Of a DNA stretch of 64,000 bases, positions 57,185 to 62,831 are shown in pieces. Location of the stretch: contig JAJDAQ010000059.1 of NCBI GenBank assembly GCA_029261815.1, positions 1 to 64,000 on the forward strand. Direction: 5' to 3'. The stretch is from Deltaproteobacteria bacterium. Lineage in GTDB: Bacteria > Myxococcota_A > UBA9160 > UBA6930. The notes beneath the pieces were generated by a model. It was not told the DNA's origin and did not search any database. It worked only from the letters and a program-made list of their open reading frames with translations. The position numbers were made by a program, and so were the translations under genes. How positions within the stretch are numbered: position 1 is the first letter of the stretch; each line of letters begins with the position of its first letter.

Positions 57185-59977
57185 TCAGCTGCAGCCGCTG
57201 GAGACTCCGCAGTTCGGGCACTTGTAACAAGCGCCGTTTCGAACCGTGATGCTCCCGCACTCCATGCAGGCCGGGGCGTCCGCCTGGTTGACGAACGTCT
57301 GGTGCTCCCCCGCAGAGCGGTCGGCAGAACCGCCGGCCACCGCGACGCGGGGTTGCACCTGGGACAGTCCCGTCACCTCGGCATCCGTCTCCTGCTCATC
57401 TGCCGGCAGTTCGTCTTCGATGAACCGGCTTCCCAGGTAGCGGAAGATGTAGTCGGTGATGGACTTGGCCATCGGGATCTCGGGGTTGTTCGTGAAGCCC
57501 GACGGTTCGAACCGGGTGTGACTGAACTTGTCGACCAGCGCCTTCAGCGGCACACCGTACTGGAGCGCAATCGAGGTCATCGTCGCGATCGTGTCCATCA
57601 GGCCCGAAATCGTCGAACCTTCCTTCGCCATCCTCAGGAAGATCTCGCCGGGCGAGCCGTCGGGGTAGCGACCGACGTGCAGGTAGCCGTCGTGTCCGGC
57701 GATGGAGAACTTGTGCGTCACGCTCTCGCGTTCGTCCGGGAGCTTGATCCGGATTGCACGGCGTTCATGCAGGTCGATGATGTCGGCGCCCTTCTCCTCG
57801 ACGTCCTTGCCCGCGTTGAGCGGCTGCGTCCGCTTGGAACCATCGCGGTAGACGGCAAGCGCCTTGAGGCCCTGCTTCCAGCCTTCCACGTAGGCAGCGG
57901 TGAGGTCCTCGACCGTGGCATCGGTCGGCAGGTTCACGGTCTTGCTGATCGCTCCCGACAGGAACGGCTGTGCCGCGCCCATCATCCGGATGTGACCCAT
58001 CCAGTCGATCGAACGCACACCGTTCGCGGGCCGGAAGGCGCAGTCGAAGACCGGCAGATGCTCATCCTTCAGCCCCGGTGCCCCTTCGATCGTCTCGTTC
58101 TCGTCGATGTAGGCCACGATGTCGTCGATGGCATCGCGGTCGTAGCCGAGCTTCGTGAGCGCGATCGGAACCGTGCCGTTCACGATCTTCAGCAGGCCGC
58201 CGCCGACCAGCTTCTTGTACTTCACGAGAGCGATGTCGGGTTCGACGCCCGTCGTATCGCAGTCCATCATGAACGCGATCGTGCCGGTCGGGGCCAGCAC
58301 CGTCACCTGGCCGTTCTTGTAGCCGTGCTTCTCGCCGAGCTCGAGCGCTTCCGCCCAGACCTCGCGCTGCGTCTCGAGGAGGTCCGCCTGCACGCCGTTC
58401 TCCGGAACCGTGCTCGCGGCGTCCTTGTGCATCGCGATGACTTCGAGGAAGTCCTTCCTGTTCTTGCGGTAGTGCGGGAACGGCCCCATCGCGGCCGCGA
58501 CCTCGGCACTCGTCCGGTAGGCCTCGCCGCACATCAGCGACGTGATGGCACCTGAGAGGTTCCGGCCCTCGTCGCTGTCGTAGGGCAGACCCTGGCTCAT
58601 GAGCAAGGCGCCGAGGTTGGCGTAGCCGAGACCCAGGGGGCGGTAGAGATGGCTGTTCTTGCCAATCGCCGCTGTCGGATAGTCGGCGAAGTCGACCAGG
58701 ATCTCCTGGGCCAGGATCGTGATCGAAGCCGCGCGGCGGAAGTCGTCGACGCGGAAATCATCCTTCTCGTCCAGGAATTGCATCAGGTTCAGGCTGGCCA
58801 GGTTGCAGGCCGTGTCGTCCAGGAACATGTACTCGGAGCACGGGTTGCTCGAGTTGATCCGGCCCGACGTCTTCACCGGGTTCCACTTGTTGATCGTGGT
58901 GTCGTACTGCATGCCCGGGTCGCCACAGACGTGAGCGGCTTCCGAGATCTCGTTCAGGAGTTCCTTGGCGTTGTACGTATCGACCGCATCGCCGCTGACG
59001 ACGGCGCGGGTCTGGAAGTCCCGACCGTCCTCGGCCGCGCGCATGAACTCGTCGGTCACGCGGACCGAGTGGTTCGCGTTCTGGAAGAAGACCGAGTCGT
59101 AGGCACCGCCAGGGACGTTGAAGCCACCGTCGTAACCGGCATCGATCAACGACCAGGCCTTCTTCTCTTCGCTCGCCTTGCTGTTGATGAACTCCTTGAT
59201 GTCGGGGTGGTCGACATTGAGGATCACCATCTTCGCGGCGCGGCGCGTCTTGCCGCCGCTCTTGACGACGCCGGCGAACGAGTCGAAGCCCTTCATGAAG
59301 GACACGGGACCCGAAGCCGTGCCGCCGCCCTTCAGGTCTTCGCGTGAAGAGCGGATCTTCGAGAGGTTCGAACCCGTGCCCGAGCCTCCCTTGAACAGCA
59401 TGGCCTCGGTCTTGGCCAGATCCATGATCGACTCCATCGTGTCATCGACGGAGTTGATGAAACAGGCGCTCGCCTGCTGCTTGGTGTCCGGCACGCCCAG
59501 GTTGAACCAGACGGGGCTGTTGAAGGCCATCTTCTGGTTGACGAGGAGATGCGCGAGTTCCTCACGGAAACGCTCGCCATCAGCCGGCGTGCGGAAATAG
59601 CCGCCCTCGTCGCCCCATTCGTGGATCCGGTCGACGACGCGTCCGATCAGCTGCTTGACGCTGCGCTCGCGGCCCGGCGTGCCCAGATGCCCACGGAAGT
59701 ACTTGGACACGACCACGTTGGTGGCGAGCTGCGACCAGGTCGCCGGCATCTCGCAGTCGTTCTGCTCAAAGATGACCTCGCCACGCTCGTTGGCGATCGT
59801 GGCCGAACGAATCTCCCAGTCGACTTCGTCAAAGGGATGCGTTCCTTCGCGGGTAAAGTGGCGCGGAATCTCAACGCCTTGAACGGCCTTGCCCTTTCGG
59901 CTGCGGGCCGCCTTCGCGCGCGTCTTGCCGACCTCTGTCTCCGTCGTCGTCTGCCCCGTGTTGGCCATTTCACCCAC
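57185..59977 (-). CDS. nrdJ: Adenosylcobalamin-dependent (class II) ribonucleotide reductase
   Basis: 930 residues. It makes deoxyribonucleotides with or without oxygen, using B12. RNR motifs: ACFINSVDDTMESIMDL, GGSGTGSNLSKIRS, active-site NPCSEYMFLDDTACNLASLNL in sense, and ALAPTGTIAFMMDCDTTGVEP-like VLAPTGTIAFMMDCD. The C-terminus carries the redox pair and a zinc-type CMECGSITVRNGACYKCPNCG motif. GTG at 59977 is preferred, since AGAGGG lies 8 nt before it; ATG at 59968 is an alternative. Preceded by a long structured leader and NrdR-like boxes. Confidence 0.95.
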   Translation of the reverse strand: MGEMANTGQTTTETEVGKTRAKAARSRKGKAVQGVEIPRHFTREGTHPFDEVDWEIRSATIANERGEVIFEQNDCEMPATWSQLATNVVVSKYFRGHLGTPGRERSVKQLIGRVVDRIHEWGDEGGYFRTPADGERFREELAHLLVNQKMAFNSPVWFNLGVPDTKQQASACFINSVDDTMESIMDLAKTEAMLFKGGSGTGSNLSKIRSSREDLKGGGTASGPVSFMKGFDSFAGVVKSGGKTRRAAKMVILNVDHPDIKEFINSKASEEKKAWSLIDAGYDGGFNVPGGAYDSVFFQNANHSVRVTDEFMRAAEDGRDFQTRAVVSGDAVDTYNAKELLNEISEAAHVCGDPGMQYDTTINKWNPVKTSGRINSSNPCSEYMFLDDTACNLASLNLMQFLDEKDDFRVDDFRRAASITILAQEILVDFADYPTAAIGKNSHLYRPLGLGYANLGALLMSQGLPYDSDEGRNLSGAITSLMCGEAYRTSAEVAAAMGPFPHYRKNRKDFLEVIAMHKDAASTVPENGVQADLLETQREVWAEALELGEKHGYKNGQVTVLAPTGTIAFMMDCDTTGVEPDIALVKYKKLVGGGLLKIVNGTVPIALTKLGYDRDAIDDIVAYIDENETIEGAPGLKDEHLPVFDCAFRPANGVRSIDWMGHIRMMGAAQPFLSGAISKTVNLPTDATVEDLTAAYVEGWKQGLKALAVYRDGSKRTQPLNAGKDVEEKGADIIDLHERRAIRIKLPDERESVTHKFSIAGHDGYLHVGRYPDGSPGEIFLRMAKEGSTISGLMDTIATMTSIALQYGVPLKALVDKFSHTRFEPSGFTNNPEIPMAKSITDYIFRYLGSRFIEDELPADEQETDAEVTGLSQVQPRVAVAGGSADRSAGEHQTFVNQADAPACMECGSITVRNGACYKCPNCGVSSGCS

Positions 59978-60455
59978 GCTGTCGTCCCTCTTTGATTTTC
60001 GCTGTTCGCCGGTGGCGGTTGGTTGATCGCGCGATGTCTGCGACTGACCGGGAGGTCCTGCGGACTGCGCTGTGTTTCTATGTGACGGCCCGGCCTACCG
60101 GGGCGTTCGATCGGCCCCGCTGAAGGGGGCCCGCGGCTCTGTGGCTACCTGCCGGGTTCCGTGCCCGGCGTCCTGCTGCTGGAGTGTTTCCCGAGTGGCG
60201 GTTCCAAAGCGGCTTCGGGTTCTACCGCGTCCCGATGAGGAGCGCCGAGTACCGCTGTTTGGCCTGGCAACCGACGCTGGAAGTCCCTGTTTTGGTTCTA
60301 TTTTCTGGAGAAGTGCAGAGACGAGAGGGGCCCCGGGTTTCCCCGGGGCCCCACGAGCCAGGGCAGGTCCTCCTTCCCGCCGCAAGCTCATCCCTCTCGG
60401 TAACCGCCTGTTCAAAGAACCCCCCAGGCCACCGAGAGGAAAATCTTCCCCGCAA
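59978..60455 (-). ncRNA. Structured nrdJ leader RNA, possible cis-regulator
   Basis: About 478 nt between the predicted transcription start and nrdJ without a gene. The minus-strand RNA folds into a 9-bp stem CCTCTCGGT/ACCGAGAGG (60431-60439 with 60393-60401) and an 11-bp GGGGCCCCGGG/CCCGGGGCCCC stem (60327-60337 with 60342-60352). The latter is capped by GAAA, a GNRA tetraloop that only this strand would have. Further GC-rich hairpins lie at about 60121-60175. A B12 riboswitch would suit the gene, but I could not find its conserved core. A published nrdJ leader motif also exists; I cannot test the match. Confidence 0.5.
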
Positions 60456-60461
60456 GAATGT

Positions 60462-60491
60462 TTTCTACCGTCATGCTCCCAAGCGAGTCAA
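60462..60491 (-). promoter_or_regulatory. Promoter of nrdJ
   Basis: TTGACT (60486-60491), an 18-bp spacer, TAGAAA (60462-60467) on the minus strand. Expected start near 60455. Confidence 0.6.
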
Positions 60492-60499
60492 CGAAAAAA

Positions 60500-60547
60500 G
60501 CACAAGATCTTGCGCAAGACAGGGGACCCTAGCACAAGCCCTCGTAG
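60500..60547 (-). promoter_or_regulatory. Tandem NrdR-like boxes upstream of nrdJ
   Basis: GCACAAGATCTTGCGC (60500-60515) is a near-perfect palindrome of the NrdR-box type. A second copy starting GCACAAG (60532-60547) begins exactly 32 bp away, the three-turn spacing reported for tandem NrdR sites; its right half is degenerate. Both lie just above the -35 box. Confidence 0.6.
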
Positions 60548-60707: not shown

Positions 60708-62831
60708 TCAGTCGGAGGTCTCGAGCCCCGAATCCGCGGCCGCGCGAAGCATCTGCTCGATTTCAGCCGGCGGAACCGGAGGGCTGAACAGGTAACCCTG
60801 CATCACCCGGCAGCCGATCGCGTCGAGGTGGGAGCGCTGCTTCTCGGTCTCCACGCCTTCGGCCACCACTTGTAGCCGTAGCGCCCGCGCCATCGACACG
60901 ATCGCCTCGGTGATTGCTGCATCATCGGCATCGAGCACCACGTCGCGCACGAAGGAGCGGTCGATCTTCAGGATGTCGACCGGGAAGCGCTTCAAGTAGG
61001 AAAGCGACGAGTAGCCGGTCCCGAAGTCGTCGAGCGCGACCTGGATCCCGAGGCGCTTGAGTTCGCGGAGCGTGCGGCGCACAGCATCCGGGTCGGCCGA
61101 GAACACGTTCTCGGTGATTTCGACGACCAGGTGGTTCGGCGGCATGCCGGTGTCGAACAGCACCTGCCCCACCTGTTCCAGCAAGGCATCGCTCTCGAAG
61201 TGCTGGGGCGAGATATTCACCGCCATATGGAGGGGCGGCATGCCCTGCGCCAGCCACGCGGCAGACTGGCTGCACGCTTCCTCGAGGACCCATTCGCCGA
61301 TCGGATTGATCAGGCCGCAGGACTCCGCCACCGGAATGAACTCGGCCGGCGGAACCGGGCCGAGGTCGGCGTCCGTCCAGCGAATCAAGGCTTCGACGCC
61401 AAGGATCCTCCCCGTCCGGATCTCCACCTGGGGCTGGTAGAAGAGTTCGAAGTCGCGGCGTTCGATCGCACCGCGAAGCCGATCTTCGAGGGCCACGCGA
61501 CGCGTTTCGGAATTGCCGATCTCCTGGGAGAAGAACTGGAAGTTGTTGCGTCCACGCGCCTTGGCTTCGTACATCGCGACGTCGGCGTTGCGCAGCAACG
61601 TCTCCACGTCGTCGCCGTCTCCGGGGAACAGGGTAATGCCGATCGACACCCCGACCACGAGTTCGTGGGGGCCGACCGGGAATGGCTCGCGAAGCGCGTC
61701 GAGGACACGGGAGGCGATGCCGCCGGCGTCCGCCGCGTTGTGGATCTCCGGGAGCACCACGGTGAACTCATCCCCTCCCAGGCGCGAGATCGGCCCGCGG
61801 CCGCCGCCTCTCCACGTCACGAGATCGCTCGTCCGCAAGCACTGCTCGAGGCGACGCGCGACCGCACGCAACAGCTCATCTCCGACGGAGTGGCCGAGCG
61901 TGTCGTTCACTCGCTTGAAGTTGTCGAGGTCGAGGAACAAGAGCCCCAGGCTGCGTCCGTGACGCCGCGCGATCTCGAGTGTCTCCTGGAGACGTTCCAT
62001 GAAGGCGTTTCGATTCGCGAGCCCGGTCAAACCATCGTGATAGGCCAGGAACCGCATCTGCTCGGCGGCGCGCATCCGCTCGGTGACGTCCTGCACGCTG
62101 CCGGTGATCCGACTCGGTTGACCGCGCTCATCCGAGAGCACCTCCGCTTCCCACGAAACGAAGCGTGACTCCCCGTCGGGCAAGGCGATCTCGCACTCTG
62201 CACTCCACGCCTCACCGGTCTCGGCCGCGTGCTGGAAGTTCTCGGCCAATCGCATCCGGTCATCCGGCAGACAGGCATCGAGCAGCCTGGTGATCGTGAT
62301 GGGACCGCCTTCGCCAACGCCTAACAAGTCGAGCAGGCCATCGGAGACCTCGAATTCTCCACCTGCCGTATCGACTTCCCATGTCGCAACGGAAGCCAGG
62401 CGGCGCAGCAGGTCGCGGTTGCGCGCAAGTTCGCTCTCGCGCTGGCGCAGGCGGACCCAGGTGCCGATGCGACGCGCGAGCAGGCGACCATGGAGCGGGC
62501 GCCGCAGCAGGTCACTCGCGCCGGCGTCGACCGCGCGCAAGATTGCGTCCTCGTTCCCGGCGGAAACGAGCAGCAGGATCGGCGTATGCCGGGTGTCAGC
62601 GCGCCGCCGCAGCACCTGGCAAAGGGCGGAGCCCGAGATGCCCGCGAGGCCGTCGTCGAGCACGATGCCACCGGGGCGGCGGGATTGGACCGCCTGGAGC
62701 ACAGCGTTCGCGTCGTCGACCACGTCGACACGAATCCCTTCCGCGCCGAGGGCCGCGGAAGCCGATGCCGCTTCCAAGGGTCTCAGCCCGGCGAGCAGGA
62801 CCCGGTTCTCGGGCTTTGTGACCTGCCGCAT
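60708..62831 (-). CDS. REC-PAS-GGDEF-EAL cyclic-di-GMP enzyme
   Basis: 707 residues. Domains: a receiver-like domain (about 10-125; Asp in VLDDGL kept, but the usual Lys replaced by Arg in LLRRP), a PAS domain (about 145-255), GGDEF (about 265-440, RLGGDEFTVVLPE intact) and EAL (about 450-700). The EAL residues are present: VEALIRW, the DDFGTGYSSLSYL loop, LKIDRSFV and EGVE. Both activities are therefore possible. About ten extra residues (TWRGGGRGPI) separate the RTSD I-site from GGDEF. ATG with GGAAAGG upstream. Confidence 0.92.
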   Translation of the reverse strand: MRQVTKPENRVLLAGLRPLEAASASAALGAEGIRVDVVDDANAVLQAVQSRRPGGIVLDDGLAGISGSALCQVLRRRADTRHTPILLLVSAGNEDAILRAVDAGASDLLRRPLHGRLLARRIGTWVRLRQRESELARNRDLLRRLASVATWEVDTAGGEFEVSDGLLDLLGVGEGGPITITRLLDACLPDDRMRLAENFQHAAETGEAWSAECEIALPDGESRFVSWEAEVLSDERGQPSRITGSVQDVTERMRAAEQMRFLAYHDGLTGLANRNAFMERLQETLEIARRHGRSLGLLFLDLDNFKRVNDTLGHSVGDELLRAVARRLEQCLRTSDLVTWRGGGRGPISRLGGDEFTVVLPEIHNAADAGGIASRVLDALREPFPVGPHELVVGVSIGITLFPGDGDDVETLLRNADVAMYEAKARGRNNFQFFSQEIGNSETRRVALEDRLRGAIERRDFELFYQPQVEIRTGRILGVEALIRWTDADLGPVPPAEFIPVAESCGLINPIGEWVLEEACSQSAAWLAQGMPPLHMAVNISPQHFESDALLEQVGQVLFDTGMPPNHLVVEITENVFSADPDAVRRTLRELKRLGIQVALDDFGTGYSSLSYLKRFPVDILKIDRSFVRDVVLDADDAAITEAIVSMARALRLQVVAEGVETEKQRSHLDAIGCRVMQGYLFSPPVPPAEIEQMLRAAADSGLETSD

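Follow-up and report, generated by a model that had tools for sequence, protein, structure and literature searches.

A probable new structured RNA family at the predicted 5′ end of nrdJ mRNAs

The window, that is, the whole 64,000-nucleotide stretch of DNA analyzed in this study, is part of a metagenome-assembled genome and carries an nrdJ gene with a long leader on its minus strand. The closest relatives bearing a name, from which its placement is taken, are uncultured Deltaproteobacteria/Myxococcota, among them the isolates UBA9160, UBA6930 and UBA4427. The following features were assigned, P1 to P4 being the helices of a consensus RNA structure.

57185-59977 (minus): nrdJ, B12-dependent class II ribonucleotide reductase (RNR) (NF005122, 1411 bits; TIGR02504, 579 bits)
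59978-60314 (minus): variable linker of 337 nt, unstructured (fold z +0.5 against shuffles) and conserved among close relatives only
60315-60453 (minus): structured RNA element, a four-way junction, presumed to form the 5′ end of the nrdJ mRNA (from fold z, conservation and consensus structure)
60317-60323 (minus): 3′ strand of P1, in a pyrimidine-rich tail
60327-60352 (minus): P4, an 11-bp GC-rich hairpin with a GAAA loop
60354-60390 (minus): P3 hairpin, with the loop AAGGAGGA at 60368-60375
60392-60405 (minus): 3′ strand of P2
60417-60427 (minus): start of the P2 loop with a conserved GGGGGG run (from the alignment)
60427-60440 (minus): 5′ strand of P2, pairing with 60392-60405
60445-60451 (minus): 5′ strand of P1, pairing with 60317-60323
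60462-60467 (minus): putative -10 hexamer TAGAAA, after an 18-bp spacer
60486-60491 (minus): -35 hexamer TTGACT
60500-60515 (minus): NrdR-type box 2, GCGCAAGATCTTGTGC (consensus of 72 loci, nCnCnAnATtTTGTGg)
60532-60547 (minus): NrdR-type box 1, CTACGAGGGCTTGTGC, its distal half weak in the window's genome (consensus of 72 loci, cnCaAgggnTTGTGg)

The product of the next gene upstream (60708-62831, minus strand) is a GGDEF protein of c-di-GMP signalling, which also has matches of the phosphodiesterase type.

RNRs set the supply of DNA precursors. No class III RNR was found in the 41 relatives searched, and class I was essentially lacking, with one of the 41 marginally above the PF00268 cutoff. 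Thus, nrdJ appears to be the sole RNR gene in these bacteria. The window's genome also encodes NrdR (TIGR00244, 154.7 bits against a cutoff of 124.65), a protein that senses dATP/ATP. The only cobalamin riboswitch found in this genome is a canonical one (RF00174, 84.2 bits; L142, G000:C46:292-483), located upstream of a TonB-dependent receptor gene.

The preliminary description of this locus, made from the sequence, reported two NrdR-like palindromes 32 bp apart above a TTGACT/TAGAAA promoter of nrdJ. Both palindromes (60547-60532 and 60515-60500) and both hexamers were found at their places. In 69 of 72 distinct homologous loci, two NrdR-type boxes are separated by 30-31 bp. TTGAC is present in all 72, in 71 of them 33-40 nt above the RNA element, although a simple promoter scan called no promoter. 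Palindromic boxes paired at the promoter, together with an NrdR gene in the genome, are what is expected of an NrdR regulon, and they support control of nrdJ by NrdR through these boxes. The RNA element begins nine bases past the -10 hexamer. From the conserved promoter spacing, transcription would be expected to begin close to the first nucleotide of the element, which should therefore be about +1 of the nrdJ transcript (predicted start at ~60453). Together with the T-run that follows, box 2 was also picked up as a terminator in a scan.

A structured RNA of 480 nt had been proposed for the leader. Structure was indeed found, confined to the first 139 nt: the segment 60453-60315 folds far better than shuffles (z -5.9 and -5.8 in two runs), while the whole 493-nt leader hardly does (z -1.3). 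In a DNA search of 60 relatives, it was mainly this segment that was matched, at ~69-92% identity, and it is the only part of the leader conserved beyond close relatives. The 11-bp stem capped by GAAA, also described previously, was recovered at 60352-60327 as P4.

A consensus structure was predicted from an alignment of 26 members of the order. Three hairpins are enclosed by helix P1, so that a four-way junction results; two of them have GGGGGG and GGAGGA in their loops, and the third is GC-rich. Run against named nrdJ contigs, the covariance model built from the 26 members detected 34 loci at E < 1e-5. In 52 distinct sequences, standard pairs occupy 95.5% of the pair cells (48-60% in slid controls) and two-sided changes occur at 35 of the 41 pairs, this alignment having been fitted to the covariance model. 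In alignment A1, made by MAFFT without structure, 95.7% of the cells are paired and 20 of the 41 pairs have two-sided changes, the consensus structure having itself been predicted from A1. The conserved structure among relatives on which the earlier proposal had been staked is thus present. G-U cells far outnumber A-C cells (362 vs 9), and hence the RNA is read in the nrdJ sense.

The G-run loop of P2 is invariant, whereas two clades have lost the P3 loop or carry an insertion in its place. Besides the G-rich loops, few unpaired positions are strongly conserved. The conserved GGGGGG and GGAGGA loops suggest binding or a tertiary contact. A contact of GGAGG in the P3 loop with CCUCU before P1 is possible in 51 of 56 sequences bearing GGAGGA and in 2 of 16 others; as the NrdJ tree shows only two or three changes that are independent, this is suggestive and not significant. 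A leader peptide inside the element was also considered and rejected, since in the alignment, read by eye, the window lacks the ATG of GGGGATGA and indels disrupt the frame.

How widespread is the element? The window's class yielded matches in 78 of 91 genomes (40 of 43 high-quality genomes); the 288 genomes searched from the rest of the phylum yielded none. In one of the 78 (G061) the listed match is a chance one, but a true element was then found before nrdJ. Strong matches lie 5′ of nrdJ on the same strand in 28 of 29 cases of a first set, the remaining contig having no nrdJ, in 36 of 36 further matches fetched, and in all 11 of a third set with nrdJ in the stretch. Thus, wherever the contig reaches far enough, every strong match examined is 5′ of nrdJ, and on this sampling the link to nrdJ is exclusive. 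Genome G024 carries two copies of nrdJ, and a separate element precedes each of them (L145 and L146). The weak matches off nrdJ (L147, L149, L151, L168) have no nrdJ nearby and were set aside as chance or terminator-like hairpins. The core pattern of the element was not found in viral contigs.

In most of the 13 unmatched genomes, nrdJ either was not assembled or lies at the end of a contig. Three have a readable nrdJ leader and no recognizable element (G021, G028 and G069). In G021 and G028, which belong to family f9, the NrdR-type box and the TTGAC promoter are kept and the RNA is absent (L189 and L190). Judged from these two leaders, family f9 is a natural deletion of the RNA, and the element behaves as a module that can be separated from the promoter. 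In G069, any element present is very diverged. In a second order of the class, the same fold is found with a rewritten P1. In genus g35 (L155-L160), the GGAGGA loop of P3 gives way to ~100 inserted nucleotides that split the match to the model; what looked like tandem copies in this genus is actually a single element with a long P3 insertion.

Is the element a known RNA? No Rfam family exceeds its threshold there. The preliminary description had offered the nrdJ motif, which is RF03034 in Rfam and was reportedly described by Weinberg et al. in 2017, as a possible identity. This has to be abandoned: the RF03034 model (80 positions, gathering cutoff 40.3 bits) scored above its cutoff in 0 of 40 genomes, gave no listed match at the element, and was not among the matches listed in permissive Rfam scans of the window region and 17 homologues. 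The earlier remark that the standard B12 riboswitch core is not visible in the leader was borne out, since RF00174 (threshold 31.5 bits) has no match at the element even in a permissive search, and the alignment of the element contains no cobalamin riboswitch core. At P4, the BjrC68 family (RF02353) gave 30.7 bits, below its gathering score of 39. The other option in the preliminary description, that the RNA is new, is the better supported one. The best reading is that the element represents a new cis-regulatory RNA family dedicated to nrdJ, its newness being judged against Rfam.

The linker between the element and nrdJ ranges from tens of nucleotides to about 1.7 kb across loci. In L050, L057, L060, L061 and L172, it measures ~1.3-1.7 kb and contains no clear gene; the L050, L057 and L172 loci also gave no match to Rfam. 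Neither a terminator, nor an overlap with the ribosome-binding site (RBS), nor a conserved expression platform was recognized in the linkers examined. An intrinsic terminator was disfavoured because T-runs are few in them, and a C-rich Rho-type linker because C does not exceed G in most of them; these counts cover all but the last loci of the set. Given the variable linker and the lack of a terminator or RBS overlap, classical attenuation is less likely than an effect on mRNA survival or on translation over a long range. With T-runs so few, the variable linker also argues against direct masking of the RBS, so that the candidates left are mRNA survival, translational control at a distance and a protein partner.

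Taken together, I propose, with a probability of about 0.62, that the first ~140 nt of the nrdJ transcript are a new structured RNA family acting in cis on the nrdJ mRNA. NrdR, responding to dATP/ATP, would set initiation via the paired boxes. After initiation, the RNA would fold at the 5′ end of the transcript, with P1 closing P2, P3 and P4. The folded RNA would most likely answer a second signal, either a metabolite such as adenosylcobalamin or a nucleotide, or a bound protein, and the response would change the translation or survival of the nrdJ mRNA. On the sequence evidence, the RNA is probably a cis-acting, post-initiation regulator of nrdJ that complements NrdR, with its sensing and output step put forward as a model.

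What the RNA senses, if anything, may be considered in two ways. It is possible, if somewhat improbable, that no small molecule is involved and that a 5′-terminal element shields the message from decay or binds a regulator, possibly NrdJ itself. P1 would start about two nucleotides from the predicted 5′ end, the linker is variable, and the module is absent in family f9 while the promoter stays; however, the loops and the junction in its entirety are conserved more strongly than mere 5′ shielding would require, and no protein partner is known. A narrower form of the proposal, a riboswitch with a new fold, is likewise somewhat improbable. In that case, the junction would be an aptamer dedicated to the class II RNR gene, binding adenosylcobalamin, another cobamide or a (deoxy)nucleotide and working alongside NrdR, and the stability of P1 would decide nrdJ expression. 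As in riboswitch classes, a conserved structure supported by covariation lies in the 5′ leader; this strongly constrained multi-helix junction precedes a B12-dependent and apparently sole RNR, and its G-run loop is invariant. On the other hand, no conserved expression platform was found, the order already has NrdR for nucleotides, the genome has an ordinary cobalamin riboswitch for uptake, and the conservation of unpaired positions beyond the G-rich loops is modest for a ligand pocket.

The remaining explanations depart from the proposed cis-acting family or its mode of action. The nrdJ promoter might produce a separate trans-acting small RNA ending near P4, with nrdJ expressed from another promoter or by read-through. 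P4 resembles a terminator stem, as the BjrC68-like match indicates, and in one genus linkers of up to ~1.7 kb contain no clear gene. This is nevertheless quite unlikely, as P1 closes over P4 and its 3′ strand is conserved by pairing, no U-run follows, and nrdJ adjoins the element in every strong match checked. Regulation of the CsrA type is very improbable. CsrA prefers GGA loops, which the P3 loop A(U/A)GGAGGA resembles, but CsrA is encoded in only 27 of 91 genomes and is absent from the window's genome, and across the 91 genomes its presence and the GGA loop do not go together.

The cis-acting RNA proposed here is of interest because one B12-dependent enzyme seems to carry the whole RNR load in these bacteria, and the supply of DNA precursors probably comes under a second layer of control through the RNA that heads the mRNA of this enzyme. 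For direct tests of a nucleotide or cobamide sensor, the 139-nt element, with its alignment, is a well-defined construct. That a dedicated RNA in this position has no detectable likeness to the nrdJ motif of Actinobacteria points to more than one origin of RNA-level control over class II RNRs.

Cobalamin riboswitches often precede B12-related genes, as the element does, and the window's genome has one elsewhere; the element differs in giving no match to that family and in lacking its core. The BjrC68 sRNA has a GC-rich 3′ hairpin resembling P4, but the match is below the gathering score and depends on this stem. A counterpart in genomic position is the nrdJ motif, also a structured RNA upstream of nrdJ and a presumed cis-regulator, which has been listed in Streptomyces lividans (PMC8079986) and was also found in S. 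ambofaciens (PMC8388888); its lineage is the Actinobacteria, and its model finds nothing at the element. The promoter, in turn, resembles those of NrdR regulons. As in Streptomyces, whose NrdR tetramer suits two boxes about three helix turns apart (PMC9110341), two boxes with such a spacing lie over the promoter; here, however, box 1 is degenerate on its distal side, and a structured RNA follows from the inferred start.
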